A stretch of DNA of 64,000 nt from Flavobacteriaceae bacterium (GTDB lineage Bacteria > Bacteroidota > Bacteroidia > Flavobacteriales > Flavobacteriaceae), in assembly GCA_027082925.1 (NCBI GenBank), contig JALWTD010000018.1, positions 310,001-374,000 on the forward strand. The letters are read 5' to 3'. Position numbers and translations under genes: made by a program. Numbering within the stretch: position 1 is the first letter of the stretch; the number at the start of each line of letters is the position of its first letter. Positions 48,550 through 62,207 of the stretch are shown here, piece by piece. The notes beneath the pieces were generated by a model. It saw only the letters and a list, made by a program, of their open reading frames with translations, was not told where the DNA came from and did not search any database.

Positions 48550-49926
48550 ATGGAGTTACCATATGCAGAACCTTATAAAATTAAAATGGTAGAATCTATT
48601 AAAAGATCTACAAAAGAACAACGTTTAAAATGGATTAAAGAAGCACATTACAATTTGTTTAACCTTTCTTCAGATAAAGTGTTTATTGATTTGTTGACAG
48701 ACTCTGGGACGGGTGCTATGAGCGATAAACAATGGGCAGAGATGATGATAGGAGACGAGAGTTATGCCGGTTCATCGTCGTTTGAAAAATTAAAGAAAAC
48801 GGTTAAAAAAATTACAGGATTTGAGTATTTTTTGCCAACTCATCAAGGAAGAGCTGCCGAAAATGTATTGTTTTCAGCTCTGGTAAAGGAAGGTGATATT
48901 ATTCCCGGGAATTCACATTTTGACACTACTAAAGGACATATAGAATTTAGAAAAGCAACCGCTGTTGACTGTACTATTGATGAAGCTTTTGATACTTCAA
49001 TCAACCATCCTTTTAAAGGAAATATAGATTTAAAAAAGCTCGAAAAAGTATTTAAAACTCATTCCAATAAAAAAATACCTTTTGTTATTTTAACCATAAC
49101 ATGTAATTCTGCAGGAGGTCAACCTGTTTCACTAGAAAACTGTAGACAAGTTTCTGCCTTGTGTAAGCAATACAAAATCCCACTTTATTTTGATGCAGCT
49201 CGTTTTGCAGAAAACGCTTATTTCATAAAAAGACGTGAGCCGGGTTACGAAAACAAAACAATTAAAGAAATTGTAAAAGAAGTTTTTTCGTACGGAGATG
49301 GAATGACCATTAGTGCAAAAAAAGATGGATTGGTAAATATGGGTGGTTTTATAGCTCTTAATAATTACGAGGTATTTAAACAGGCAACCGTTTTTAATAT
49401 TATGTTTGAAGGATTTATTACTTATGGAGGAATGAATGGAAGAGATATGGGAGCTTTAGCTGTTGGTTTAGATGAGTCTACAGAAATTAATTATTTAGAG
49501 AGCAGAGTAGAGCAAATAGCTTACTTAGGTAAAAAATTGGTAGAATATGGTGTGCCTGTTCAACAACCTTTTGGAGGACACGCAATATTTTTAGATGCAA
49601 ATAAATTTGTACCAACAATACCTAGAGAGGAATACAGAGCACAAGCTCTAGCTATTGAATTGTACATTGTAGGAGGAATTAGAGGTGTTGAGATAGGAAC
49701 TGTTTTAGCAGATAGAGATCCGGTAACTAGAAAAAATAGATATCCGGAACTAGAATTGGTTAGATTAGCCATACCAAGAAGAACATATACAAATAATCAT
49801 ATGGATTATGTGGCAGCAACTCTAAAAAACATATACGACACAAGACATGAAGCAAAATCGGGGTATGTTATTACAGAAGAAGCACCAATTATGAGGCATT
49901 TTACTGTTAAATTTGAAAAAATATAA
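48550..49926 (+). CDS. tnaA: Tryptophanase
   Basis: 458 residues, fold-type I PLP beta-eliminating lyase of the tryptophanase/tyrosine phenol-lyase family. DLLTDSGTGAMSD, PTHQGRAAEN and SAKKDG (PLP lysine Lys258) are the family landmarks. Asp125 in HFDTTKGH corresponds to the Asp that marks tryptophanase (Thr in tyrosine phenol-lyase), and DAARFAENAYFIK and GIRGVEIGT also follow the tryptophanase version. It would split tryptophan into indole, pyruvate and ammonia. The long leader has a short open frame of unproven meaning. The Rrf2 regulator gene starts 55 nt downstream. Confidence 0.87.
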   Translation: MELPYAEPYKIKMVESIKRSTKEQRLKWIKEAHYNLFNLSSDKVFIDLLTDSGTGAMSDKQWAEMMIGDESYAGSSSFEKLKKTVKKITGFEYFLPTHQGRAAENVLFSALVKEGDIIPGNSHFDTTKGHIEFRKATAVDCTIDEAFDTSINHPFKGNIDLKKLEKVFKTHSNKKIPFVILTITCNSAGGQPVSLENCRQVSALCKQYKIPLYFDAARFAENAYFIKRREPGYENKTIKEIVKEVFSYGDGMTISAKKDGLVNMGGFIALNNYEVFKQATVFNIMFEGFITYGGMNGRDMGALAVGLDESTEINYLESRVEQIAYLGKKLVEYGVPVQQPFGGHAIFLDANKFVPTIPREEYRAQALAIELYIVGGIRGVEIGTVLADRDPVTRKNRYPELELVRLAIPRRTYTNNHMDYVAATLKNIYDTRHEAKSGYVITEEAPIMRHFTVKFEKI

Positions 49927-49981
49927 TACTAATTACTCTTTTTTTAATAATTTTACATAAAAATTACTAAAACAAGTTTCA

Positions 49982-50440
49982 ATGTTATCACATGCAAGTA
50001 AGTACGCTATTTTATCTACACTGTTTTTAGCAGCACATTCTAGCGCAGATAAAAAAATAAGTGTTAAACAAATCGCAGAAAGTATTGATGTGCCTAGTCC
50101 TTTTTTGGCAAAATTATTTCAACAATTAGTAAGAGGCAAGGTTATTTCTTCAACAAAAGGACCTAATGGCGGATTTTACCTAACAAAAGAAAACGGTCAA
50201 AAAACAGTTTGTGATATTATTGAAAATATTGATGGGTTAAATAAACTAAATCAATGTTTTTTGGGCTTGCATGAATGCGATTCATCAAATCCTTGTCCGG
50301 TACATTTTATTGTAGAACCCTTTAAAAAGAGTATCCTTGGGAAATTTAGAGATAAAACAATTATGGAGTTTTCTGAAGAAATCAAATCAAACGGTAGGGT
50401 ATTGACACTTAAAGATATAGGTACTTCACTGAAAAAATAA
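49982..50440 (+). CDS. Rrf2-family Fe-S transcriptional regulator (NsrR/IscR-like)
   Basis: 152 residues. Winged helix-turn-helix with YAILSTLFLA and IAESIDVPSPFLAKLFQQLVR and the wing STKGPNGGFYL. Three cysteines (92, 99, 105; C-x6-C-x5-C) sit where Rrf2 proteins hold a 2Fe-2S or 4Fe-4S cluster; NsrR, the NO sensor of this family, has nearly the same spacing. Placed 124 nt before norC, it is the best candidate for the repressor that binds the AAAAGA-N8-TCTTT palindromes found at three promoters of this island. That assignment is inference. A terminator-like hairpin follows (50456-50477). Confidence 0.87.
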   Translation: MLSHASKYAILSTLFLAAHSSADKKISVKQIAESIDVPSPFLAKLFQQLVRGKVISSTKGPNGGFYLTKENGQKTVCDIIENIDGLNKLNQCFLGLHECDSSNPCPVHFIVEPFKKSILGKFRDKTIMEFSEEIKSNGRVLTLKDIGTSLKK

Positions 50441-50455
50441 TTTTATTTTTCTAAT

Positions 50456-50477
50456 GCTGATAAAAATCAGCTTTTTT
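50456..50477 (+). terminator. Terminator of the Rrf2 gene that contains an FNR-type box
   Basis: GCTGAT, loop AAAA, ATCAGC, then six T, 15 nt after the Rrf2 stop. The same bases form TGAT-N4-ATCA (50458-50469), the core of an FNR/CRP-family site, centred 29.5 bp before the norC -7 element. Confidence 0.7.
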
Positions 50478-50512: not shown

Positions 50513-50532
50513 AAAAGATAAAAAGGTCTTTT
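50513..50532. promoter_or_regulatory. Shared palindrome AAAAGA-N8-TCTTTT, norC copy (candidate NO-responsive operator)
   Basis: AAAAGA TAAAAAGG TCTTTT, in the predicted norC leader about 10-28 nt after the transcription start. The same palindrome is found before the DUF438 gene and the porin gene. The similarity to the porin leader continues to about 50553. Confidence 0.6.
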
Positions 50533-50564
50533 AATTAAATTTAACTAATTAAACTCGTTAAAAT

Positions 50565-51005
50565 ATGTTATCAAAAAAACAAGCAAGAGCATTCTTTTTA
50601 GGAGGAACATTAGTAACGTTTCTAATATTTATAGGACTTACGGTGTATTCTTTATCTGAAGGAAATGATCAATCTAACAAAGAAAATCTTACAGCATCAG
50701 TTGTAAGGGGAAAAGAAATTTGGGAATCAAATAATTGTATGGGGTGTCACACCTTATTAGGAGAAGGAGCGTATTATGCCCCTGAGTTAACAAAAGTAAT
50801 TGACAGAAGAGGAGAAGGGTATGTAAAAGCCATTTTAATGTCTCCAGTGCCATGGCAACCTAACGGAAGAAAAATGGTCGCTTATGGGATGTCAAAAAAT
50901 GAAGCTGAGGATGTAGTAGCCTTTTTTAAATGGATAGGCAAAATTGACTTAAATGGGTTTGACAGAATAGTATCTCCGTTAGCAAAGAAAAAAATTAACA
51001 ACTAA
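50565..51005 (+). CDS. norC: Nitric oxide reductase subunit C (cytochrome c)
   Basis: 146 residues. One N-terminal membrane helix (about 10-29) and a periplasmic monohaem cytochrome c domain with CMGCH (Cys58, Cys61, His62) and a later Met (in GRKMVAYGM) as the probable sixth ligand. ELTKVIDRRG and SPVPWQPNGRKM are typical of NorC. It passes electrons to NorB. norB follows after 11 nt. The promoter combines an FNR-type box and the shared palindrome. Haem attachment would depend on a system II machinery such as ccsBA in this window. Confidence 0.94.
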   Translation: MLSKKQARAFFLGGTLVTFLIFIGLTVYSLSEGNDQSNKENLTASVVRGKEIWESNNCMGCHTLLGEGAYYAPELTKVIDRRGEGYVKAILMSPVPWQPNGRKMVAYGMSKNEAEDVVAFFKWIGKIDLNGFDRIVSPLAKKKINN

Positions 51006-51016
51006 ACAAAAACATT

Positions 51017-52354
51017 ATGAAATATAAATCACAAAAAGTAGCATATTGGTTTTTTGCCTTTTCAATGTTACTATTAATATTGCAAATTACATACGGTTTT
51101 GTAATGGGGTTTGCTCGTATAGGAATGGACGGATTGCATGAATTTATTCCTTTTAACACAGCAAGAGCTGTACACACAAATTTATTGGTAGTTTGGTTAT
51201 TGTCTGGTTTTATGGGAGCGGCCTACTACATTATTCCTGAAGAAGCTCAAAATGAGTTGGTAAGTGTAAAATTAGCTTATGTTCAGTTAATTAGTTTAGC
51301 AGCTGTAGGAGTTACAGCTGTGATAGGATACCATTTCAACTATTGGGAAGGACGTAAATTTTTAGAAATTCCACGACCTTTAGATTATTTAGTAGTGGTA
51401 AATGTACTTTTATTTTTAGGAATTATTTTACTAACCTTATTCAAAGGAAAACGTAGAACAACTACGGCATTGGTACTATCTATGGGGCTTCTATTTGCAG
51501 CACTATTGTATTTACCTGGTATGATACCTTTTGATAGTCAAGTGTTAGACTCTTTCTTCCGTTGGTGGGTTGTTCACTTATGGGTTGAAGGTGTTTGGGA
51601 ATTAATTATGGGAGGTATTTTATCTTTCTTATTAATAAAACTTACCGGAGTAGACAGAGAGGTGATAGAAAAATGGTTGTACGTAATTGTAGGACTAACA
51701 TTTTTATCAGGGGTATTAGGTACCGGACATCACTACTACTATATTGGTGTTAACAAAATTTGGTTAATTGTTGGAGGTATTTTCTCAGCATTAGAACCTT
51801 TAGCATTCCTTGCAATGGCATTGTTTGCTGTAAATATGTACAGAAAAGGAGAGAAAAAACATCCAAATAAGCTAGCCTTATATTGGACATTAGGAGCGGC
51901 TATTGTGTCGTTTATAGGAGCAGGGCTTTTAGGATTTGCGCACACACTACCTCAAACAAACCTATACACACACGGAACATTGGTAACAGCAATGCACGGA
52001 CACCTTGCTTTTTGGGGTGCATATGGTATGATTGTTTTAGCTATTATAAGTTACAGTTTACCAAACTTAACAGGAAGAAAATTATACGACAGTTCAAGAG
52101 GAAGAATGGCTTTTTGGCTTGCAAACATTGGAATGATAGGTATGACTGTGGCATTTGGAGTAGCCGGAGTAGCTCAAGTATATTTAGAAAGAAAATTTGG
52201 ACTGGACTTTATGAAAGTTCAAAAAGAGATAAGTATTCACTTTGTAGTATTAATTCTATGTGCAACTATTTTTACCACAGGAGTTATACTTTACATTGTT
52301 GATTTTTATAAACACGGAACTCCAACCGATGAAGCATTAGAAAGTAAAGAGTAG
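51017..52354 (+). CDS. norB: Nitric oxide reductase subunit B (cNOR catalytic subunit)
   Basis: 445 residues with about 12 transmembrane helices. Haem-copper-oxidase-type ligands are all present and have a constant offset to Pseudomonas NorB. His53 ligates haem b. His187, His238 and His239 bind the non-haem iron FeB, with Glu191 nearby. Glu260 is conserved, and the AMHGH pair (about 327 and 329) serves haem b3 and b. There is no long N-terminal quinol-oxidising extension, so it is the cytochrome-c-dependent form that works with NorC. It reduces two NO to N2O at the inner membrane. Confidence 0.95.
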   Translation: MKYKSQKVAYWFFAFSMLLLILQITYGFVMGFARIGMDGLHEFIPFNTARAVHTNLLVVWLLSGFMGAAYYIIPEEAQNELVSVKLAYVQLISLAAVGVTAVIGYHFNYWEGRKFLEIPRPLDYLVVVNVLLFLGIILLTLFKGKRRTTTALVLSMGLLFAALLYLPGMIPFDSQVLDSFFRWWVVHLWVEGVWELIMGGILSFLLIKLTGVDREVIEKWLYVIVGLTFLSGVLGTGHHYYYIGVNKIWLIVGGIFSALEPLAFLAMALFAVNMYRKGEKKHPNKLALYWTLGAAIVSFIGAGLLGFAHTLPQTNLYTHGTLVTAMHGHLAFWGAYGMIVLAIISYSLPNLTGRKLYDSSRGRMAFWLANIGMIGMTVAFGVAGVAQVYLERKFGLDFMKVQKEISIHFVVLILCATIFTTGVILYIVDFYKHGTPTDEALESKE

Positions 52355-52429
52355 TAATTTAAATTAATAAAGTAAAAACCAGTGGTAAGACACTTAAAAA
52401 TTTTAATTGTAGTTTTTTTAGATTGATTT

Positions 52430-52490
52430 CCAGAGTTGATGATTGTTCGTTATTTTCCATACTATGTAATCAAATGGTCTGAGACTCTGG
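52430..52490. repeat. Interrupted inverted repeat upstream of nirS
   Basis: CCAGAGT (52430-52436) and ACTCTGG (52484-52490), followed by TTTTCT, with an additional inner TTGAT/ATCAA pairing. It could be a weak terminator behind norB or a leader structure of nirS. No consensus -7 element and no copy of the shared palindrome was found in the 178 nt between norB and nirS. Confidence 0.35.
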
Positions 52491-52532
52491 TTTTCTAAAA
52501 AACAAAATATTTAAAATCAAATTAACTTAAAA

Positions 52533-54185
52533 ATGAAAAAAGTTTTATTTTCAATGGCAATAGTTGTAGCAGTAGTTGCCATTAGTTGTAAAGATTCAGA
52601 AAAAAAATCTGAAGTAAAAGAAGAAATAGCATCTGGAGATATAAAAATATCGAAAGAAGAAATGAAAAGAGGGAGTGATATTTATTTTGATAAATGTGCC
52701 GGATGTCACGGTTCTACACGAAAAGGAGCAACAGGTCCGTCGTTATTACCAGACGGTGACGGTAAATTTGCAGCAACTAAAGCACTTGGTGCCGCAGGGT
52801 TAAGAGCTTTTATTGAAAATGGAACTCCGGCAGGAATGCCAGAATGGAAAGGAGTAATGTCTGAAGAGGAAATTGAATTAATGACTCGTTTTTTACAAGT
52901 TGATCCTCCTATAACTCCTCCATTTGAAATGGCTAACATTAAAGAAACTTGGAAAGTAATAGTTCCTGTAGCCGACAGACCTACAAAACCTGAACACAAT
53001 AGAAATATCGACAATTTCTTTGGAGTAATTATGAGAGATGCAGGTAAAGTAGCTATTATAGATGGAGATACAAAAGAAAAATTAGCAGTACTTAAAACAG
53101 GATTTGCAGTACATATTTTACGTACTTCAGCTTCAGGAAGATACTTTTACTCTATAGGTAGAGATGGTAGAATAACAATGATAGATACTTATCCTAAGGT
53201 GCCAAATATTGTTGCTGAAGTAAGAGCCTCTTTTGATGCTCGTTCTGTTGAAGTAAGTAAATATAAAGGCCCTAAAGGTGATTTTTATGATAAATACCTA
53301 ATAGCAGGAGGTTATAACCCAAGTCATTTTGTAATTTTTGATGCTCAAACACTTGAACCTTTAAGCGTAACAAAAACATCAGGAAATGCGTGTGATGGAG
53401 AAAAAGAATTTGTTGAAGAAGCAAGAGTTGCTTCTATTGTAGCATCTCATACCGATCCAATTTGGGTAGTAAACGTAAAAGAAACAGGAATGGTATGGCT
53501 GGTAGATTATACCGATCCTAGAAACCCTAAATCAACACAAATTCCATCAGCACGATTTTTACATGATGGTGGTTGGGATGCAACAGGACATTATTTCCTT
53601 GTAGCAGCAAATGCAAGTAATAAAATTGTTGTAGTTGATGTGCCTAATAAAAAATTAGAAGCCATTATAGAAGTAGGTGTTAAACCACACCCAGGTAGAG
53701 GTGCAAATGTTAAAAATAAACTTGGTAACCTTTGGGTAACAGGACACTTAGGTGAAAATAAATTATCATTTATTAAAACAGATAAAGGTGAAGGACAATG
53801 GACTGTAGTTAAAGAAGTTAAATTACCAGGAAATGGTGGAGGAAACTTATTTATTAAAACACACCCAAAATCAAAACACTTATGGGCAGACAGAACGTTA
53901 AACCCAGATAAATCTTTACATAGTGCTGTTACAGTAATAGATGTAAATACTTTAGAGGTAATTAAAACCATTGAAATGCCAAAAGAACTTGACGGTAGAG
54001 CAGTACATATGGAGTACAATAAAGCCGGTGATGAAGTTTGGATTTCTGTATTTATGGGAGAAAAAAGCGGTATTGTAATTTATGATGATAAAACGTTAGA
54101 ACTCAAACAAATTATCAAAGGAGATTGGGTAGAAAACCCAACAGGTAAATTCAATATGTATAACACAACAAACGATATCTACTAA
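52533..54185 (+). CDS. nirS: Cytochrome cd1 nitrite reductase, lipoprotein form
   Basis: 550 residues. The signal peptide ends in a lipobox with Cys19 (AISCKDSE), so the mature protein should be lipid-anchored; classical NirS is soluble. Cytochrome c domain: CAGCH (Cys55, Cys58, His59). The d1 beta-propeller has His194 (GFAVHI) as likely proximal d1 ligand and the distal pair His344 (RFLHDGG) and His386 (PHPGRG), 42 residues apart as in Pseudomonas. The C-terminus PTGKFNMYNT is typical. It reduces nitrite to NO in the periplasm. No haem d1 synthesis genes are nearby. Confidence 0.95.
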   Translation: MKKVLFSMAIVVAVVAISCKDSEKKSEVKEEIASGDIKISKEEMKRGSDIYFDKCAGCHGSTRKGATGPSLLPDGDGKFAATKALGAAGLRAFIENGTPAGMPEWKGVMSEEEIELMTRFLQVDPPITPPFEMANIKETWKVIVPVADRPTKPEHNRNIDNFFGVIMRDAGKVAIIDGDTKEKLAVLKTGFAVHILRTSASGRYFYSIGRDGRITMIDTYPKVPNIVAEVRASFDARSVEVSKYKGPKGDFYDKYLIAGGYNPSHFVIFDAQTLEPLSVTKTSGNACDGEKEFVEEARVASIVASHTDPIWVVNVKETGMVWLVDYTDPRNPKSTQIPSARFLHDGGWDATGHYFLVAANASNKIVVVDVPNKKLEAIIEVGVKPHPGRGANVKNKLGNLWVTGHLGENKLSFIKTDKGEGQWTVVKEVKLPGNGGGNLFIKTHPKSKHLWADRTLNPDKSLHSAVTVIDVNTLEVIKTIEMPKELDGRAVHMEYNKAGDEVWISVFMGEKSGIVIYDDKTLELKQIIKGDWVENPTGKFNMYNTTNDIY

Positions 54186-54191
54186 AATTAT

Positions 54192-54223
54192 AAACAGGCA
54201 GTGAAAACTGCCTGTTTTTTTTT
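54192..54223 (+). terminator. Terminator of nirS
   Basis: AAACAGGCAGT, loop GAAA, ACTGCCTGTTT followed by T; 7 nt after the stop. It shows that the open frame beginning at 54201 is not the start of the next gene. Confidence 0.92.
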
Positions 54224-54266
54224 CATACAAATTCACGTAAAAAATCAATCAAAAAACATTGGAATA

Positions 54267-56261
54267 ATGAAAAAATATTTTATTTCAACAGTAGCTCTTA
54301 TGCTCTTTTTTAAAGCAGTTGTTGCTCAAACTGTTGATACACTTACAGTAAATAAATTAAACGAAGTTGTTGTGACAGCTCAGTATGTTCCTCAATCTGA
54401 AAAAAATGCAGTTTACAAGGTACAAGTCATTAATTCAGAAGTTATAAAAAGTAAATCAGCAAATAATTTAAGAGAATTATTACAGCAAGAATTAAATATA
54501 GATTTATCACAAAATTCTGTTTTTGGTTCTAGTATAGATATACAAGGTATTTCAAAAGAAAATATAAAAATACTTATTGATGGTGTACCAGTTATAGGTA
54601 GGTTAAATGGAGTTATAGATTTAAATCAAATCAACCTTAATAGTATTGAAAAAGTTGAAATTATAGAAGGTCCTGTTTCTATTTTTTACGGTACAGATGC
54701 AATGGGAGGTATTATTAATTTAATCACTAAAAAGCAAGTAAATAAAAAAGTAGAAGGAGCTATTTCTACATACTACGAAAGTATAGATGCGCTTAATTTA
54801 AATGGAGATTTTGGTTATAAATTTGGCACAAACACAATGCGTTTAAATACAGGGTTTTACCATTTTAACGGTTTAAGTACCAACGATTCTCCTCGCAATT
54901 TAAATTGGGAAGAACGCAAACAGTATTTCAGCGACTTTATGTTTAATAAAAAGTTAAAAGAGCTCAACTTAAGGCTAAATACCAGATATTCTGATGAGGA
55001 ATTAATCTCTATAGGTGAGCCTGATAGACGAGGAAATATTTTAGATAAAAACTATTTTACTAAACGTGTTGATAATTCCTTAAATCTTAATGGTAAGGCT
55101 TTTAACGATAAATTTATAGATGTAATTTTAGCGTATAATTACTATCAAAGATACCATGACACTTACGTTGTTGATGAGGTAGCAAATACGAGTACATTAT
55201 CTGAAACCGATACGAAAGCCGATAATATTGTAAAGTATAATTTTGGAAATTTTAAAGCACAATTAGGAACAAATGCAACAACTAAAAAGTTAAATTATGT
55301 AGTAGGAACAGATATCGTTATAGAAGCTACTGAAGGAATTAGAATTCTAAATAAAAAGCAAACAATAACTACTGCCGCATTATTTAGTAGTTTAAATTGG
55401 AAGTTGTCTCCTAACTTTGAGCTTCAACCCGGAGCGCGTTATACGTGGAATAGTAGTTATGGATCCCTTTTATCTCCGGCATTAAACTCAAAACTTAAAA
55501 TTAATGAAAACAGTTACCTTAGACTTTCTTATGCAAGAGGTTATAGAGCACCGTCGTTAAAAGAATTGTTTTTAGATTTTAATATTAGTGCAGGACCGGT
55601 TACATACATTATTTCTGGAAACGAAAATTTAGATGTTGAAAAATCGCATAGTTTTAACTTGCAATATTCATACAGTAAAGTATTTAAAGATGGTAGTTAT
55701 TTTTCTATAGAACCTTCTGTTTTTTACAACAACATTTCTAACCTAATAGCCTTAAGTGAAATGGTAAATTTTAAAAGAAACTATATCAATATAAATAAAT
55801 TTAAATCTGTAGGCGGAAAATTTAATGTTGCTTATAATCCAAACGAATTAGTATACTTAAAAGCAGGATTTTCTTTAATAGGTAGATACAACGAGTTTAA
55901 TAAAGATTTTAATACCGATGAGTTTTTATACACTCCTGAGGTATCTTCAAGTGTGAGTTACAAGTTTAAAAATACCAGTTTAAAACTTAATGCGTATTAT
56001 AAATACTCAGGAAAACAAACAGGGTTTTACTTAGATCAAAACACCAATAGTTTGGTAAAAACTACAAGAGAAGATTTTAATAATTTAGACGCTTCAGCCT
56101 CTGCTTCTTTATTTAAAAAAGCGGTAGATGTTTCACTAGGAGTTAAAAATATTTTTGATGTAAAAGATGTAGAAACCGTTAATGAAGTAGGTCAAGCACA
56201 TTCCAGAGACTTGCAATTATGGGGAAGATCATTTTTTACAAAAATTACCATTAATATATAA
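54267..56261 (+). CDS. TonB-dependent outer-membrane receptor
   Basis: 664 residues from ATG 54267, which gives a normal signal peptide (ending VVAQ). A TonB-box-like segment and plug domain follow (about 30-145: LNEVVVTAQYVPQ, IDIQGISKENIKILIDGVPVIG, VEIIEGPVSIFYGTDAMGGIINLITKK), then a 22-strand-type barrel with the C-terminal FTKITINI. The plug resembles receptors for iron chelates, haem or cobalamin; no SusC-like N-terminal domain is present. It is set between nirS and norQ, so import of iron, haem or another cofactor for these enzymes is plausible but unproven. Confidence 0.87.
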   Translation: MKKYFISTVALMLFFKAVVAQTVDTLTVNKLNEVVVTAQYVPQSEKNAVYKVQVINSEVIKSKSANNLRELLQQELNIDLSQNSVFGSSIDIQGISKENIKILIDGVPVIGRLNGVIDLNQINLNSIEKVEIIEGPVSIFYGTDAMGGIINLITKKQVNKKVEGAISTYYESIDALNLNGDFGYKFGTNTMRLNTGFYHFNGLSTNDSPRNLNWEERKQYFSDFMFNKKLKELNLRLNTRYSDEELISIGEPDRRGNILDKNYFTKRVDNSLNLNGKAFNDKFIDVILAYNYYQRYHDTYVVDEVANTSTLSETDTKADNIVKYNFGNFKAQLGTNATTKKLNYVVGTDIVIEATEGIRILNKKQTITTAALFSSLNWKLSPNFELQPGARYTWNSSYGSLLSPALNSKLKINENSYLRLSYARGYRAPSLKELFLDFNISAGPVTYIISGNENLDVEKSHSFNLQYSYSKVFKDGSYFSIEPSVFYNNISNLIALSEMVNFKRNYININKFKSVGGKFNVAYNPNELVYLKAGFSLIGRYNEFNKDFNTDEFLYTPEVSSSVSYKFKNTSLKLNAYYKYSGKQTGFYLDQNTNSLVKTTREDFNNLDASASASLFKKAVDVSLGVKNIFDVKDVETVNEVGQAHSRDLQLWGRSFFTKITINI

Positions 56262-56280
56262 ATTTAGTTCTAATCGAATA

Positions 56281-56318
56281 CTTTTCAATAATTAATTGTT
56301 ACTTTGATTATTGAAAAG
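56281..56318. repeat. Inverted repeat between the receptor gene and norQ
   Basis: Perfect 12-bp arms CTTTTCAATAAT (56281-56292) and ATTATTGAAAAG (56307-56318), spacer 14 nt. No T run follows, so a weak terminator or a protein-binding site are both possible. Confidence 0.5.
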
Positions 56319-56348
56319 CATTTATCTAAAATCAAAAAGCTTTACCAA

Positions 56349-57131
56349 ATGGAAAAAAATCAATCACCATATTACCATACCATAGGAAAAGAAGTAGAAG
56401 TTTTTGAGCAGTCGTATAAAAATAAGATACCATTTTTATTAAAAGGACCTACAGGTACGGGAAAATCTCGATTTATAGAGTTTATGGCTCATAAATTAGA
56501 TAAAAAGCTAATTACTATTTCTTGCCACGAAGAAACATCATCTACAGATTTAATAGGACGATATATTATCAAAGGTGCAGAAACTGTTTGGTTAGATGGG
56601 CCACTTACAACAGCAGTAAAAGAAGGTGCTATTATTTATTTAGATGAAATTGCTGAAGCAAGACCTGATGTAATTGTTGCAATACACTCACTAACCGACC
56701 ATAGAAGAGAGCTTTTTATAGATAAATTAGGAGAAGTTGTAAAAGCTCATCCCGATTTTATGTTGGTGGCCTCGTTTAATCCCGGATACCAACGAGGATT
56801 TAAAGAGCTAAAGCCATCTACACGTCAACGTTTTGTTGCGGTATCATTTAATTATCCTGAAGCAAGTATTGAGGCTGAAATTATTGTAAAAGAAACTTCT
56901 GTAGATTCAAGTATTGCTAAAAAATTGGTAAACATTGCAACTAAAATTAGAAATTTAACAGAACTGGGCTTAACCGAAACAGTTTCTACCAGATTATTGG
57001 TTGACGCTGCAAAATTAATAGCTAGCGGTTTGCCAAAACGATTGGCTGTACAAGTGGCTGTTGTAGAACCTCTTTCCGATGACTTAGAAGTTGTACAAGC
57101 ATTAAAAGATTTAAGCGATTTAATGATATAA
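56349..57131 (+). CDS. norQ: NorQ/CbbQ-type MoxR AAA+ ATPase
   Basis: 260 residues from ATG 56349; a TTG further up (56304) lies in the inverted repeat and is not favoured. AAA+ features: Walker A GPTGTGKS (33-40), Walker B IIYLDEIAEA, sensor VASFNPGYQ. The SCHEETSSTDLIGRY segment is typical of the CbbQ/NirQ/NorQ group. With NorD it acts as a chaperone that inserts FeB into NorB. norD follows after 23 nt. Confidence 0.93.
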   Translation: MEKNQSPYYHTIGKEVEVFEQSYKNKIPFLLKGPTGTGKSRFIEFMAHKLDKKLITISCHEETSSTDLIGRYIIKGAETVWLDGPLTTAVKEGAIIYLDEIAEARPDVIVAIHSLTDHRRELFIDKLGEVVKAHPDFMLVASFNPGYQRGFKELKPSTRQRFVAVSFNYPEASIEAEIIVKETSVDSSIAKKLVNIATKIRNLTELGLTETVSTRLLVDAAKLIASGLPKRLAVQVAVVEPLSDDLEVVQALKDLSDLMI

Positions 57132-57154
57132 ATTGGTAACTACACAATACAAAA

Positions 57155-58924
57155 ATGTTTGAACCTGATGAATATCTGTTTGCAAAGCTTGCTTATTATT
57201 TTAAACGCAAAAAAAAAGAAAAGCAAGAAAATATTGCTCGTGCTGTTAAGTTAGACGATTTAAAACAACGTCTTACTATTTTTGCACGAGCAATTACAGG
57301 TTCACCCATTGAAATATTTGAAGCAGAACGAGAAGGAGGATACAAAAACAATAGTTTTTTTCTTCCAAGTAGAATGGATAAGTTCGCTACAGTAGCACAA
57401 AATATTTCTTTTTACCTATTTAGAGTATTGTATTTATCAATTCAAAAAAACAATAAACTTAACTGGACCGATGACGTTGAGCACACTTTAGAAGAGTCAC
57501 AACAAAAAGCACTAGATACAGCACCACAAGTACTTCAGGAATTATTTGAGCAATTTCCGATAACACAAACGTACCATCAACAATTTGTTCAGGCTATAGA
57601 AGCACAAATAAAAGATAAAAATAAGATTGACTTTTCTTTTATCTACGGAAAGTGGATGCAAAATACTTCTGAAGAAACCTCAGACGATGTCTTAAAAAAT
57701 ATTTCAGATAAAGTTAAAACGGCTTCAGAAGAAAAACCTAAAACAATTATTCAATCAAAAGCTGTAGAAGAAATTATTTCTGTTCAAATTGATGAAAAGC
57801 AGCAAGAAGATGCCGTATTGCAACATCAGTTTGAAAAAGTGGAAACAGCCGATGAATTTGGCGGTAATTGGAGAGATATGGACGGAGATGATGAGTTGGA
57901 AGACCATTCAAATGCATTAGATGAGCTAAATATGAAATACACTGTGCGTGTAGATGATACAGCACACTCAGTTTATCAAGCCGATTTTATTGAAAACACA
58001 ACCGTATCAGAAAGTGCTTCAATAGATGGTAACGGATATCACATTACTTATGATGAATGGGATTATGCAACACGTAATTACAAAGAAAATTTTTGTAAGG
58101 TATACCCTAAAACATTGTTAAAAACAGATGTAGCTTATTACAAAAAAACACTTGTTAAAAATAGTGCTACACTAAACGGTTTGCGAAAAATGCTAACTAC
58201 CGTAAACAATAAATACCAACAACAACGAAGACAAACACAAGGCGAAGAATTTGATATTGATGCAATTATCGATTTGTTTGTTGATGTACAGTCAGGACAT
58301 ACGCCTTCAGAAAAAATTTATTTGTCGAAACGAAAAAAGGAGAAAGATTTATCCATTTTATTATTGTTAGATATCAGTTTGTCTAGTGATGGCTATGCCG
58401 CAGGAAATAGAGTAATTGATGTTGAAAAGCAAGTATCTATTTTATTTGGAGAAATATTAAACGAATTTAATATCGATTTTTCAATTGACTGTTTTTACTC
58501 TAAAACAAGAAACCACTCTACCTATATTACAGTAAAAGATTTTGATGAAGATTGGAATCGTGCTAAGTTTAAAGTAGGTGCTGTAGAACCTAGTGGATAC
58601 ACTAGAATTGGAGCAGCATTACGGCATTCAGGAGCTATGTTAGATAAACGAAACACAAAAAATAAATGGCTTATTCTTATTTCTGATGGAAAACCAAACG
58701 ATTACGATAAGTATGAAGGTAAATATGGAATTAACGACGTAAAACAAGCCTTGAGGGAGTTAAACGAACGTCAAATTAATTCGTATGCCTTGGCAATAGA
58801 GGCACAAGCAAAGTACTATTTACCTCAAATGTTTGGACAAAATCACTACCAAATTTTAACAACTCCGGTAGAATTATTACAATCGTTGGTTAAGTTGTAC
58901 GATAAAATTAAACACCAAAGTTAA
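57155..58924 (+). CDS. norD: NorD-type von Willebrand factor A protein
   Basis: 589 residues, cytoplasmic, no signal. The N-terminal half is helical, the middle acidic (about 185-270), and the C-terminal vWA domain (about 395-589) has the MIDAS residues DISLS (Asp406, Ser408, Ser410), the later Thr in SGYTRIG and Asp in LISDGKPND. This is the layout of NorD, partner of the NorQ ATPase in activating NO reductase. The same operon as norQ. The acidic middle region varies widely in the family. Confidence 0.92.
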   Translation: MFEPDEYLFAKLAYYFKRKKKEKQENIARAVKLDDLKQRLTIFARAITGSPIEIFEAEREGGYKNNSFFLPSRMDKFATVAQNISFYLFRVLYLSIQKNNKLNWTDDVEHTLEESQQKALDTAPQVLQELFEQFPITQTYHQQFVQAIEAQIKDKNKIDFSFIYGKWMQNTSEETSDDVLKNISDKVKTASEEKPKTIIQSKAVEEIISVQIDEKQQEDAVLQHQFEKVETADEFGGNWRDMDGDDELEDHSNALDELNMKYTVRVDDTAHSVYQADFIENTTVSESASIDGNGYHITYDEWDYATRNYKENFCKVYPKTLLKTDVAYYKKTLVKNSATLNGLRKMLTTVNNKYQQQRRQTQGEEFDIDAIIDLFVDVQSGHTPSEKIYLSKRKKEKDLSILLLLDISLSSDGYAAGNRVIDVEKQVSILFGEILNEFNIDFSIDCFYSKTRNHSTYITVKDFDEDWNRAKFKVGAVEPSGYTRIGAALRHSGAMLDKRNTKNKWLILISDGKPNDYDKYEGKYGINDVKQALRELNERQINSYALAIEAQAKYYLPQMFGQNHYQILTTPVELLQSLVKLYDKIKHQS

Positions 58925-58993
58925 TAGTCTTTTTAAGTTTCAAATGTTACACAAATAAAAGTCAAATTCATTTTTTACTAGTGCTATTCTTAA

Positions 58994-59001
58994 TACCTTT
59001 G
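58994..59001 (+). promoter_or_regulatory. -7 element of the DUF438 gene
   Basis: TACCTTTG, exact TAnnTTTG, 25 nt before the ATG. The start would lie at about 59005, exactly at the left edge of the shared palindrome. Confidence 0.6.
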
Positions 59002-59004
59002 TAA

Positions 59005-59024
59005 AAAAGACTAAACTATCTTTT
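59005..59024. promoter_or_regulatory. Shared palindrome AAAAGA-N8-TCTTTT, DUF438 copy
   Basis: AAAAGA CTAAACTA TCTTTT, both halves identical to the norC copy and a different spacer of the same length. It covers about +1 to +20, 2 nt before the ATG. A bound repressor would block initiation directly. Confidence 0.62.
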
Positions 59025-59026
59025 AT

Positions 59027-60004
59027 ATGAATTCATTTTTGTCAGAAGTAGAAAAATTACCGGCAGGACACCCGGTTAAAGTGTATTACGAGGAGAGCGA
59101 TTTAATTCAGCATCTTTTACTAGAACTTTATGAGGCAAATCCTGTTAAAGATTTTCAGAGATATTACAATATATTCAATCAATTAACAACTATAGAGAAG
59201 CGTTTTGCCCGTAAAGAAAATCAATTATTTCCGTATTTAGAAAAACATGGGTGGAATGGTCCTAGTCAAGGAATGTGGTCGTTTCATGATACTTTGAGAG
59301 ACCAAATACGGTTGTTAAATGGATATAACGAAACTAAAAACATTCCTAAAATAACAGAGAACTTGCCGTACCTCATCGAGGGAATTAAAAGGTTATTGCT
59401 AATTGAAGATTCTCGATTATTTCCAAATGCGATGCAACTTTTAACCGAAGATGACTGGAAAGAGTTTTATGAAGGCGATGAAGAAATAGGGTGGATGCTA
59501 ACCAAAAAGCCAACACCATATCCTGAAGTGTCTGAAGAAGCATACGTGCATCCAAGTCAGGATTTTAAAGAACGAAAATTGTCATTTTCTCTTGAAGATA
59601 CATTTCATTACGACGAGGGGTATATGACTCCGGAGCAAGTAAATTTACTATTGCGCTTTTTACCGGTAGATATTACCTATGTTGATGAAAATGATAAGGT
59701 GATATTTTACAATAGGGGAGACCAAAGAGTTTTTCCAAGAAGCAAAGGAATAATTGGTCGAGAAGTTCGTTTTTGTCATCCGCCTAAGAGTGTTGATATG
59801 GTATTGCGTATTGTTGAAGAGTTTAAAGCAGGAACTAAAGATGTAGCCGAATTTTGGATTAATTTTAAAGGACGTATGATTCATATTAGATACTTTGCTA
59901 TTAGAGATGCTCAAAAAAAATACAGAGGAGTTATTGAGATGTCTCAAGACGTGACAGATATTCAAAAATTAGAAGGTCAAAAACGATTGTTAGATTGGGA
60001 TTAA
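59027..60004 (+). CDS. DUF438/hemerythrin-like protein with C-terminal PAS domain
   Basis: 325 residues, cytoplasmic. N-terminal region (1 to about 160) is a DUF438/HHE-like helical bundle with candidate metal residues His29, Glu64 and His87 (ARKENQLFPYLEKHGW, MWSFHD) and IEDSRLFP. After a linker, a PAS domain (about 200-315; LPVDITYVDENDKVIFYNRG, GREVRFCHPPKSVDMV) ends the chain. Such proteins are annotated as DUF438-PAS sensors; haem or di-iron binding has not been shown here. Position inside the nor cluster and the NO-type operator suggest a role in NO sensing or removal. norE follows after 18 nt. Confidence 0.83.
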   Translation: MNSFLSEVEKLPAGHPVKVYYEESDLIQHLLLELYEANPVKDFQRYYNIFNQLTTIEKRFARKENQLFPYLEKHGWNGPSQGMWSFHDTLRDQIRLLNGYNETKNIPKITENLPYLIEGIKRLLLIEDSRLFPNAMQLLTEDDWKEFYEGDEEIGWMLTKKPTPYPEVSEEAYVHPSQDFKERKLSFSLEDTFHYDEGYMTPEQVNLLLRFLPVDITYVDENDKVIFYNRGDQRVFPRSKGIIGREVRFCHPPKSVDMVLRIVEEFKAGTKDVAEFWINFKGRMIHIRYFAIRDAQKKYRGVIEMSQDVTDIQKLEGQKRLLDWD

Positions 60005-60022
60005 CCTAAAAAAATACACCTT

Positions 60023-60601
60023 ATGAACACAACCAATATTAATTATAAAAACCTGTATTATCCGCCTGGAGGAATTTTAATGTGGATTATTATTTTTTTA
60101 GAGTTAATAACATTTGGAATTGCACTGGTTGCAATGGCAGTATATAGCAAAGAATCACCAGATGTATTTCACAATTCCAGATTGCTTTTAAACACAACAT
60201 TTGGTACAATAAATACGATTTTTTTAATTACAAGTGGCTTTTTTATGGCATTGTCTGTTCATTTTCTAAAGCAAAATAATTTAAAAAAATCATCATTGTA
60301 TTTAAAGTTAACCATGCTAGGAGGGGTTTTATTTTTAGTACTAAAGAGCATAGAATATTCTCATAAAATAGACGCCGGATTAACCATTGGATACAATACC
60401 TTTTTTACTTTTTATTGGATGCTTACACTGTTTCATGTAATTCACGTAATTGTTGGTTTGGTTATTTTATTGGTTGTGCAAAGAGGTTTAAATTCAAACT
60501 CAACTACAAAAGTTGAAGATATTGAAGCAAGTGCTGCTTTTTGGCATATGTGCGATTTAATCTGGTTGTTATTATTTCCTATAATTTATTTAATTTTCTA
60601 A
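60023..60601 (+). CDS. norE: NorE-like cytochrome c oxidase subunit III family protein
   Basis: 192 residues with five transmembrane helices, matching the five-helix form of subunit III found in NorE (about 18-40, 60-85, 95-115, 125-150, 170-192). YPPGGILMWIIIFLELITFG and TLFHVIHVIVGL are typical of the family. NorE is not essential for NO reductase but supports its activity in denitrifiers. It is followed after 2 nt by the NorF-like gene. Confidence 0.9.
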   Translation: MNTTNINYKNLYYPPGGILMWIIIFLELITFGIALVAMAVYSKESPDVFHNSRLLLNTTFGTINTIFLITSGFFMALSVHFLKQNNLKKSSLYLKLTMLGGVLFLVLKSIEYSHKIDAGLTIGYNTFFTFYWMLTLFHVIHVIVGLVILLVVQRGLNSNSTTKVEDIEASAAFWHMCDLIWLLLFPIIYLIF

Positions 60602-60603
60602 TA

Positions 60604-60840
60604 ATGAAGCATTCAATTACAGTTACGTGGATTGCATTATTAGTACTTACCATTGCAGTCTCAATAATTTCTACAATAGCTAATGAGTGGGCTATAGTAC
60701 TAATTTTAGCTTTTTCATTTTTAAAATTTACAGGTATTGCTTTTTATTTTATGGAACTTAAAAAAGCACATATTTTTTGGAAATTAGCACTTCTGTTATT
60801 CCTTGGTTTTTTCTACATTTTAATTTGGAGTACTCTTTAA
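60604..60840 (+). CDS. norF: NorF-like small membrane protein (cytochrome c oxidase subunit IV family)
   Basis: 78 residues from ATG 60604; the frame is open back to 60541 but there it overlaps norE. Three hydrophobic helices with FLKFTGIAFYFMELKKAH in the middle, as in NorF and bacterial subunit IV proteins. Together with NorE it forms an auxiliary membrane pair of the NO reductase. Identification relies on length, membrane pattern and position behind norE. Confidence 0.82.
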   Translation: MKHSITVTWIALLVLTIAVSIISTIANEWAIVLILAFSFLKFTGIAFYFMELKKAHIFWKLALLLFLGFFYILIWSTL

Positions 60841-60857
60841 AATTTATTTCAAAAACT

Positions 60858-60900
60858 TGATAAATATCAGTATTTATCTGTTAATATGGCTTTAATTTCG
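60858..60900 (+). promoter_or_regulatory. Porin promoter: FNR-type box and degenerate -7 element
   Basis: TTGAT-AAAT-ATCAG (core TGAT-N4-ATCA 60858-60869, centre 60863.5) and TAATTTCG (60893-60900). The distance between box centre and -7 element is the same 29.5 bp as at norC, and the TTTAATTT sequence is shared. Confidence 0.65.
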
Positions 60901-60907
60901 CTATATA

Positions 60908-60927
60908 AAAAGATAAAAAGGTCTTTA
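60908..60927. promoter_or_regulatory. Shared palindrome AAAAGA-N8-TCTTTA, porin copy
   Basis: AAAAGA TAAAAAGG TCTTTA, one base off the perfect palindrome; spacer identical to norC. The following leader up to about 60950 also resembles that of norC (ATTTAACTAA, ATTAAA). Confidence 0.6.
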
Positions 60928-60956
60928 AATAAAAATTTAACTAAATTAAAATAACA

Positions 60957-62207
60957 ATGAAAAAGTTTATTTTTTCAATAGTATTCGTATTATTTGCTAC
61001 TGCAGTTGTAGCACAACAATTTGATATTTCAGCAGAGGTAAGACCTCGTTTTGAAAACAAACACGGTTATGGAACGTTATTAGAAACAAATGCTGATGGA
61101 AGTAACTTTGTATCTCAAAGAACACGCTTAAATTTTAACTTTAAGCAGGACAAAATTAAACTAGGTCTTTCTTTACAAAATGTAAGAGTTTGGGGAGACG
61201 TAAGCACACTATCTTCTGATGATAATGCTACAGCACTTCATGAAGCTTGGGCTGAAGCTATTTTATCAGATAAATTCTCATTAAAATTTGGACGCCAAGA
61301 AATTGTATATGATGATCATAGAATTTTTGGTAATGTTGGATGGGCACAACAAGCAAGAAGCCATGACGCTATGATTGCCAAATTTAAAATATCTGATAAA
61401 AGTAAATTAGATTTTGGTTTTGCTTTAAATGCCGATAGCCAATCTAATGTAGATAATTTATATAGCAATGCTGCAGGTTATAAAACCTTCCAGTATGCGT
61501 ATTTTAACACCTCGTTTACAAAGGTTGGACTTAGTTTGTTGTTTTTAAATAATGGTGTTGAGTTCGAAAATTCTAACTTAAATCAAGAGGTTAATTATTC
61601 GCAAACAATAGGAACCAGAGTAACATATAAAGAAGGTAAATTTTCTTCAGATTTTGCTACTTATTTCCAAACAGGAAAACTAAGAAGTAATAGTGTAAGC
61701 GCTAGTTATTTTACAGGAAATATTAAGTATAAAGTTGCCGCTAATTTTACCTTCGGAGTAGGTGCTGAATATTTATCAGGAAAAGATATGAATGATGCTA
61801 GTACCGATGTAAAATCGTTTACACCGCTATATGGTACAAATCATAAATTTAATGGTTGGATGGACTATTTTTATGTTGGAAACCATGTAGGTTCGGTAGG
61901 ATTGGTAGATGTAAATGCTGTGTTAGCGTATAAAAAAGATAATTTTTCTGCAAAATTAATTCCTCATTTCTTTTCATCTGCAGCAGATATTTACGATGGA
62001 CAAACAAAAATGGACAGTAATTTAGGAACCGAAATTGACTTTACTTTAGGATATAAAGTGGCTAAAGACATTCAATTTAATGCAGGTTATTCTAAAATGT
62101 ACGCAACATCTTCTATGCAAGTATTAAAAGGTGGTGACAGAAATGAAAATAACTCTTGGGCTTGGATTATGTTTACATTTAAACCTAAATTATTTTCAAC
62201 AAAATAA
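60957..62207 (+). CDS. Alginate-export-type outer-membrane porin
   Basis: 416 residues. Signal peptide (ending VVAQ), then an even beta-barrel sequence. The first strands FDISAEVRPRFENKHGYG and FVSQRTRLNFNFKQ and the KFGRQEIVYDDHRIFG segment match the alginate_exp barrel family (PF13372); the barrel closes near the C-terminus (WIMFTFKPKL). Alginate is only the name-giving substrate. Because the promoter shares two sites with norC, a passage for nitrite or other small anions is a reasonable guess. Single gene with terminator. Confidence 0.8.
   Translation: MKKFIFSIVFVLFATAVVAQQFDISAEVRPRFENKHGYGTLLETNADGSNFVSQRTRLNFNFKQDKIKLGLSLQNVRVWGDVSTLSSDDNATALHEAWAEAILSDKFSLKFGRQEIVYDDHRIFGNVGWAQQARSHDAMIAKFKISDKSKLDFGFALNADSQSNVDNLYSNAAGYKTFQYAYFNTSFTKVGLSLLFLNNGVEFENSNLNQEVNYSQTIGTRVTYKEGKFSSDFATYFQTGKLRSNSVSASYFTGNIKYKVAANFTFGVGAEYLSGKDMNDASTDVKSFTPLYGTNHKFNGWMDYFYVGNHVGSVGLVDVNAVLAYKKDNFSAKLIPHFFSSAADIYDGQTKMDSNLGTEIDFTLGYKVAKDIQFNAGYSKMYATSSMQVLKGGDRNENNSWAWIMFTFKPKLFSTK

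Follow-up and report, generated by a model that had tools for sequence, protein, structure and literature searches.

A palindrome shared by nitric oxide and denitrification promoters of Flavobacteriaceae is very probably a conserved operator and the likely target of an Rrf2-family repressor

Which regulator governs the nitrite and nitric oxide (NO) genes of this Flavobacteriaceae bacterium, and through which DNA site? The window, by which we mean the whole 64,000-nt stretch analysed (contig JALWTD010000018.1, positions 310,001 to 374,000), carries a gene for an Rrf2-family regulator (49982..50440, + strand) and, at three places, the inverted repeat AAAAGA-N8-TCTTTT. The repeat is exact before the norC-type cytochrome c gene (50513-50532, AAAAGATAAAAAGGTCTTTT; 32 bp from its end to the norC ATG) and before a hemerythrin-PAS gene (59005-59024, AAAAGACTAAACTATCTTTT; about 80 bp behind norD), and it has one mismatch before an outer-membrane porin gene (60908-60927, AAAAGATAAAAAGGTCTTTA). 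We consider it likely that the palindrome, written in full as AAAAGAY-N6-RTCTTTT, is the operator of this Rrf2 protein, which would be an iron-sulfur (Fe-S) repressor released by NO and superimposed on an FNR-like activation.

The three-site repeat described in the first-pass annotation was borne out. Dinucleotide shuffles of the window gave 0.03 exact matches against the 2 seen, and none of 100 shuffles reached 2. Estimated from real sequence, the chance rate is closer to 0.13-0.21 per 64 kb than to the 0.04 assumed earlier. An 18-bp stretch (AAAGATAAAAAGGTCTTT) is identical between the norC and porin sites; with up to one mismatch its expected number is 0.00. Three of the five exact places in the 2.47 Mb genome to which the window belongs are intergenic (norC, hemerythrin-PAS and, outside the window, ric) and two lie inside reading frames. 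With one mismatch allowed, AAAAGAY-N6-RTCTTTT occurs at 17 places, 12 of them inside reading frames; the remaining five precede norC, hemerythrin-PAS, ric, the porin gene and a fasciclin-cytochrome c-nosZ operon.

Conservation before norC, which the first-pass annotation had proposed as a check, was analysed in the best 80 of 537 related norB loci, taken from named records (titles mostly Flavobacteriaceae, with few other or mislabelled bins); genes with less than 100 bp upstream and Rrf2 matches below 65% identity were excluded from the upstream-region set. Allowing one mismatch, 70 of the 80 norC promoters contain the core AAGAY-N6-RTCTT between -110 and -20, where it starts at -84 to -33. 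AAAAGAY-N6-RTCTTTT with at most two mismatches was present within 250 bp of norC in 63/80 cases, compared with 1/80 shuffles. The same core test stayed at or near chance for nirS (0/6), norQ (2/72), norD (3/71) and norE (0/58), and gave 2/80 for norB. A logo of 69 different norC sites is symmetric, AAGAY...RTCTT with an A-rich spacer, and TTAAGAY-N6-RTCTTAA variants occur before norC. A second draw covered 34 of 35 norB genomes from the family-wide set described below (own genome excluded; some species are common to both draws), and the core preceded norC in 25 of its 33 Rrf2-bearing members. The palindrome is very probably a conserved operator and no chance repeat.

The anatomy of these promoters is regular. 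Of the 70 core-bearing norC promoters, 63 also contain an exact FNR-like box (TGAYN4RTCA), placed 49-63 bp ahead of the palindrome centre, with the distances peaking at 50 and 54. The window's boxes before norC (50458..50469, TGATAAAAATCA) and the porin gene (60858..60869, TGATAAATATCA) are centred 59 and 54 bp upstream of the respective operator centres, while the hemerythrin-PAS site has none. Four proteins with a Crp-type helix-turn-helix, encoded in the same genome, are candidates for binding the box. A -7-like element is present within the 32 bases before the core at 61/71 sites (27/71 in shuffles; 15/71 in the 32 bases behind it), and at norC sites it mostly ends 8-9 bases before the core, so the palindrome at nor promoters would cover the transcription start. 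The claim that each site in the window stands behind such an element held by eye for the porin (TAATTTCG) and hemerythrin-PAS (TACCTTTG) sites, where it is clear, but only weakly for norC (TACACTG). In ric and Rrf2 promoters, by eye, the -7 element comes after the palindrome. Both positions, downstream of the -7 element at nor and porin and just upstream of it at ric and rrf2, would block transcription. Conservation was partial for the porin gene (60957..62207, + strand; Alginate_exp family, Pfam E=7.3e-12), with the core before 8 of the 19 porin genes of relatives that were examined (only same-strand matches counted, 19/20). The leaders behind the norC (50533-50564) and porin (60928-60956) sites have AT-rich stretches in common, such as ATTTAACTAA, similar in many norC relatives by eye; they are possibly a translation element.

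The genes found behind the palindrome elsewhere in the family widen the set beyond the three promoters noted earlier. A total of 249 Flavobacteriaceae genomes was scanned with AAAGATAAAAAGRTCTTT, allowing one mismatch (near-exact), and with the reversed pattern as a control. Exact matches numbered 17 for the palindrome and 3 for the control. In a manual tally, 40 of the 92 near-exact palindromes were NO-linked: norC (11), nirK (6), ric (1), qNOR (1), nrdG (3), porins (3), operons directly behind Rrf2 with a COX1-like protein or qNOR (4), and the Rrf2/nos divergent promoter or the nos cytochrome (11). One nirK and one nrdG product were run against NCBIfam and both exceeded the cut-offs (TIGR02376 and TIGR02826, respectively). 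The nos operons contain nosZ (its product above the TIGR04246 cut-off), nosL, nosD and genes for a cytochrome c and ABC proteins. In relatives the set thereby grows by ric, nirK, qNOR, nosZ operons and nrdG. In the own genome, an exact palindrome (G000:C17:312617-312636) lies 44 bp ahead of the ric gene located outside the window (product over the TIGR03652 cut-off), which is likely a further member of the predicted regulon. The nos site (G000:C18:90991-91010) has one mismatch and lies beside an FNR-like box before a fasciclin-cytochrome c-nosZ-nosL-nosD operon. At the nrdG-type activase genes, in three genomes, the palindrome stands 6-11 bp before the called start. Separately, AAAGATAAAAAAATCTTT recurs in two genomes between recQ-like and sugar-phosphate-isomerase-like genes (by eye), with no link to NO.

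The palindrome is also associated with Rrf2 genes themselves. Eighty unselected Rrf2 loci gave 74 distinct genes after 6 duplicates were merged. Of these 74, 40 carry AAAGAY-N6-RTCTTT in the 250 bp upstream when one mismatch is allowed (17 exactly), mostly at -30 to -75; shuffles of the same promoters (20 each) gave 10/1480 and no exact match. A larger count, 47/85, took in 13 loci retrieved for having the motif on their contig close to Rrf2 or NO genes; these are excluded from 40/74. In the window's own nor-linked clade there is only a degenerate AATAC-N6-NTCTT in register before Rrf2 (by eye), represented in the window by ATAATACTAATTACTCTTTT at 49923..49942, which suggests a possible weak autoregulation. 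In the family-wide scan, at least 18 of the 92 near-exact palindromes (6 of the 17 exact ones) lay within 300 bp of an Rrf2 gene among the matches listed, compared with 0 of 122 control matches; 5 of these 18 are norC sites beside Rrf2. In a second branch of Rrf2 proteins (CGLGL; three loci), the palindrome stands directly behind the gene and before operons with a COX1-like protein, qNOR or ric. These operons also hold globin-like frames (by eye), one of which was run against Pfam and had no match.

Genome content follows the same pattern. Rrf2 was found in all 31 genomes with an NO-linked palindrome but in only 23 of 40 genomes with other matches alone, and the difference persisted when 13 genomes classed through a gene beside Rrf2 were removed (18/18, p=0.0005). 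It is present in 34/35 norB genomes and 109/118 nosZ genomes, against 141/249 overall. In the 80-locus set, each of the 79 distinct genomes yields an Rrf2 match at E<=1e-12 (one locus was left out of this count because it shares its genome with another), so presence and absence are useless as a contrast there. The sole norB genome without Rrf2, G016, keeps the FNR box by eye and has no palindrome before norC. Six of the nine nosZ genomes without Rrf2 were examined, and in five of them no core match was found upstream of the nos operon, the exception being G016.

Because the core is conserved before norC, the sites occur in Rrf2 promoters, the targets identified are mostly NO genes and G016 offers the contrast described, the protein encoded at 49982-50440 very probably binds the palindromes, and it most likely acts as an autoregulated repressor. 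What the computation shows is the site, its conservation and position, its association with NO/denitrification and Rrf2 genes, and the ligand motif of the protein; physical binding, repression, an Fe-S cluster, a separate activator and NO as the signal are inferred. The Rrf2 dimer, loaded with its cluster, would occupy the palindrome over the transcription start at norC and porin; at ric and rrf2 its place would be ahead of the -7 element, close to the -33 region. Bound in this way it would exclude RNA polymerase. An FNR-like activator about 50-60 bp upstream of the operator would turn on the nor and porin promoters at low oxygen. NO or a related nitrogen oxide would damage the cluster and release Rrf2, whereupon nor, ric, nir, nos and porin genes would be expressed, joined in most relatives by the gene for the repressor itself.

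Several observations weigh against this reading. The reversed pattern outnumbers the palindrome both in the own genome (8 places against 5) and, at one mismatch, in the 249 genomes (122 against 92). Moreover, 52 of the 92 palindromes have no evident NO link, many being in reading frames and others before genes such as argS, tonB and nadA or before nothing identified. Many matches unrelated to NO had been named beforehand as an outcome that would speak against an NO regulon, and for the bare motif this was partly the case (12/17 in the own genome, 52/92 in relatives). The bare pattern is not enriched genome-wide and composition alone yields such palindromes, so the case rests on position and conservation; only position, neighbours and exactness of the palindrome are informative, not bare counts. 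The core is missing at one mismatch from ten of the 80 norC promoters: by eye, five have coding-like sequence directly upstream, four have masked or variant sites and one is unexplained. The eight misses of the second draw comprise six with coding-like upstream sequence, a symmetric variant AGGAT-N6-ATCCT (G061) and one unexplained case, and a few one-mismatch matches, at four loci, are off register. Among the unselected Rrf2 promoters, 34/74 are without a site, including those of the CGLGL branch and of the window's own clade, and 27 of the 141 Rrf2 genomes lack both nosZ and norB. G016 is a single genome, 91% complete, with a one-mismatch match upstream of nos, 478 bp before the first frame, and the genome co-occurrence counts ignore kinship. 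The own-genome nos site lies upstream of its FNR box, a place less obviously suited to simple blocking. Finally, the site before the hemerythrin-PAS gene is not kept in orthologues, as detailed below.

The most serious alternatives concern the signal and that third site. Regarding the signal, the Rrf2 protein could bind the palindrome but sense Fe-S status or redox, as IscR and RsrR do, with denitrification genes merely among its targets; we regard this as unlikely, though clearly more probable than the last three readings considered below. Its sequence favours this idea to some extent. The protein, which falls in the Rrf2 superfamily (Pfam PF02082, 80 bits against a cut-off of 30; E=2.3e-22), has the motif CX6CX5CX2H (Cys92, Cys99, Cys105, His108), shared by 86/86 rows chosen by similarity; of the two Rrf2 proteins of its genome it is the only one that has it. 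The cluster ligands of ScNsrR are Cys93, Cys99, Cys105 and Asp8, and those of IscR Cys92, Cys98, Cys104 and His107 (PMC5411485). Residue 8 of the window protein, by plain count and without structural alignment, is Tyr, and its CX2H contains His108, so its ligands look IscR-like and resemble the Cys3His set rather than the Asp8 set. The curated NsrR and IscR families were tried and membership in both was rejected, because the scores are far below cut-off (NF008240, 33.5 bits against 182; TIGR02010, 54.3 bits against 207.55); the value nearer IscR fits the redox idea. So does the precedent of RsrR, the putative NsrR of Streptomyces venezuelae that proved to be redox-sensing (PMC5015018), as do nrdG and nadA among the genes behind palindromes. 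RsrR can serve as a warning, by analogy, that an NsrR look-alike may sense another signal. By contrast, most of the targets identified are NO or denitrification genes (norC, nirK, nos, ric, qNOR), and the 20 downstream proteins run against Pfam included none of isc or suf type, no directed isc/suf search having been made.

Among known systems, the locus resembles the NsrR regulons of Escherichia coli, Neisseria, Bacillus and Streptomyces in having an Rrf2 protein with three conserved cysteines and a palindromic promoter operator, probable autoregulation as in Streptomyces, and ric/ytfE and, as in some species, denitrification genes as predicted targets (PMC1274295, PMC4432287, PMC9268430); judged by its sites, the predicted regulon holds NO-detoxification genes with ric/ytfE or nor, as expected of NsrR. 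It differs in the cysteine spacing (6/5, not the 5/5 of ScNsrR), in lacking Asp8, in the proposed targets, which extend to nosZ, nirK, porin and nrdG, and in the presumed operator: AAGAY-N6-RTCTT has an even centre, unlike the published gATGyAT-N5-ATrCATc (PMC1274295) or 11-1-11 (PMC4432287) forms. With IscR it may share a Cys3His-type ligand set, C...C...CX2H (PMC5411485), but its first two cysteines are one residue further apart than in CX5CX5CX2H, and the targets identified are for the most part NO and denitrification genes. RsrR is likewise an Rrf2 protein with operators in its own gene's promoter, but its sites are of the 11-3-11 type and its targets relate to NAD(P)H and glutamate and are not NO genes (PMC5015018). 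As in DNR/NnrR/FNR control, an FNR-like box accompanies the palindrome, but the palindrome is separate and no Crp/Fnr site. Clade II nosZ clusters from sediment metagenomes also have Rrf2 genes beside a c-type cytochrome and nosZ, but the available text gives no operator or regulon (PMC6264515). The window Rrf2 protein would thus combine ligands that look IscR-like with targets that look NsrR-like and an operator like neither. In a tree of 86 rows (arbitrary root, no outside NsrR) its clade comprises 25 nor-linked rows, most of them Lutibacter. These features very probably describe an NsrR-like NO regulon of Flavobacteriaceae whose regulator forms a branch apart and has an operator of its own.

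The second of these alternatives is that the hemerythrin-PAS site at 59005-59024 is a chance palindrome, which we also hold to be rather improbable. Conservation before hemerythrin-PAS orthologues failed outright, with the core in 0/25; the site has no FNR box beside it, and several genomes have no gap between norD and this gene. The site is nevertheless exact, about 80 bp behind norD and behind a good -7 element. In 15 of the 25 orthologue loci, a ric-like frame lies between norD and hemerythrin-PAS (by eye; Pfam ScdA_N was run at one locus). It follows norD directly in 4 of the 15; the core precedes ric in 10 of the 11 others, where there is promoter room (at most one mismatch), and the eleventh has two mismatches. 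In seven of these ten loci the core starts 83-101 bases behind norD (280, 360 and 789 in the others), compared with 85 in the window, where there is no ric between the two genes; the own-genome ric is elsewhere, with its own exact site. The palindrome at 59005-59024 is probably the leftover operator of a lost ric, now serving the hemerythrin-PAS and norE genes, although its -7 element lies before the site and that of ric promoters behind it, which counts against such an origin. At six loci the ric-like frame is reduced to an ScdA_N-like part (67-96 aa, by eye) while an operator-like site is kept. The DUF438 label given to the hemerythrin-PAS gene (59027..60004, + strand) was not recovered: Pfam gave no DUF438 match at E<=0.001, and Hemerythrin and PAS_10 instead. 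The main point of the first-pass annotation was right, the predicted regulon being larger than stated and one of the three sites being a special case.

It is very unlikely that Rrf2 activates rather than represses at the palindrome. Activation by NsrR is known in one reported case (PMC4432287) and the nos site lies upstream of the FNR box, but the nor and porin sites downstream of the -7 element and the ric and rrf2 sites just upstream of it are both blocking positions. Slightly less probable still is that another, unlinked regulator binds the palindrome and that the Rrf2 genes are merely its targets. Binding by Rrf2 is deduced from association, and the FNR-like box suggests at least one other regulator at these promoters; however, the site recurs in the Rrf2 gene's own promoter in the 40 of 74 unselected cases, the palindrome is missing before norC in G016, and the lack of a core match at five of six nos operons of Rrf2-less genomes, a figure unmatched by a count in unselected nos promoters of Rrf2-bearing genomes, speaks against it as well. 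Least of all do we favour an RNA hairpin in the 5' leaders of the norC and porin transcripts, whose arms would be transcribed just behind the -7 element and could pair, and for which two-sided changes could be cited (A-T to T-A at two flanking pairs, 6/69 sites each; AGGAT-N6-ATCCT in G061), since a symmetric DNA operator predicts such changes equally, none falls inside the core of the 69 norC sites (C-A at the Y..R pair in 4/69), and the site of ric and Rrf2 promoters, which by eye precedes the -7 element, would escape transcription.

The remaining genes of the nitrite/NO island, all on the + strand, were named from their Pfam matches. Behind the norC-type gene (50565..51005; Cytochrom_C) come the norB-type haem-copper subunit (51017..52354; COX1, E=1.6e-62) and the nirS-type cytochrome cd1 nitrite reductase (52533..54185; Cytochrom_D1, E=8.6e-115), and further on the norQ-type AAA ATPase (56304..57131; AAA_5 and CbbQ_C), the norD-type VWA protein (57155..58924; VWA_CoxE) and, after hemerythrin-PAS, the norE-type COX3 protein (60023..60601; COX3). 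A 458-aa pyridoxal phosphate-enzyme-like gene (48550-49926) precedes Rrf2, and this position is kept in many nor-linked relatives.

A defined operator lets regulons be read from genome sequence. Among the titles and abstract openings listed in searches of open-licence literature, none describes an Rrf2/NsrR operator or regulon for Flavobacteriia or Bacteroidetes. Sec-type (clade II) nosZ is common in the family (118/249 genomes) and its product consumes the greenhouse gas nitrous oxide (N2O); the role of Rrf2 in nos clusters has been called hard to predict (PMC6264515), and an operator with a named regulator makes the control of N2O reduction and NO defence in this group directly testable. We give about even weight to the wider view that Bacteroidota have their own NO master switch, an Rrf2 branch with an invariant CX6CX5CX2H and a private operator that arose separately from NsrR and, together with an FNR-like activator, would govern denitrification from end to end (nirS/nirK, norCB/qNOR, clade II nosZ) as well as Fe-S repair, the activase of the anaerobic ribonucleotide reductase and an outer-membrane porin. 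It would represent a further wiring of denitrification in a bacterial group, next to NsrR and NorR/DNR.

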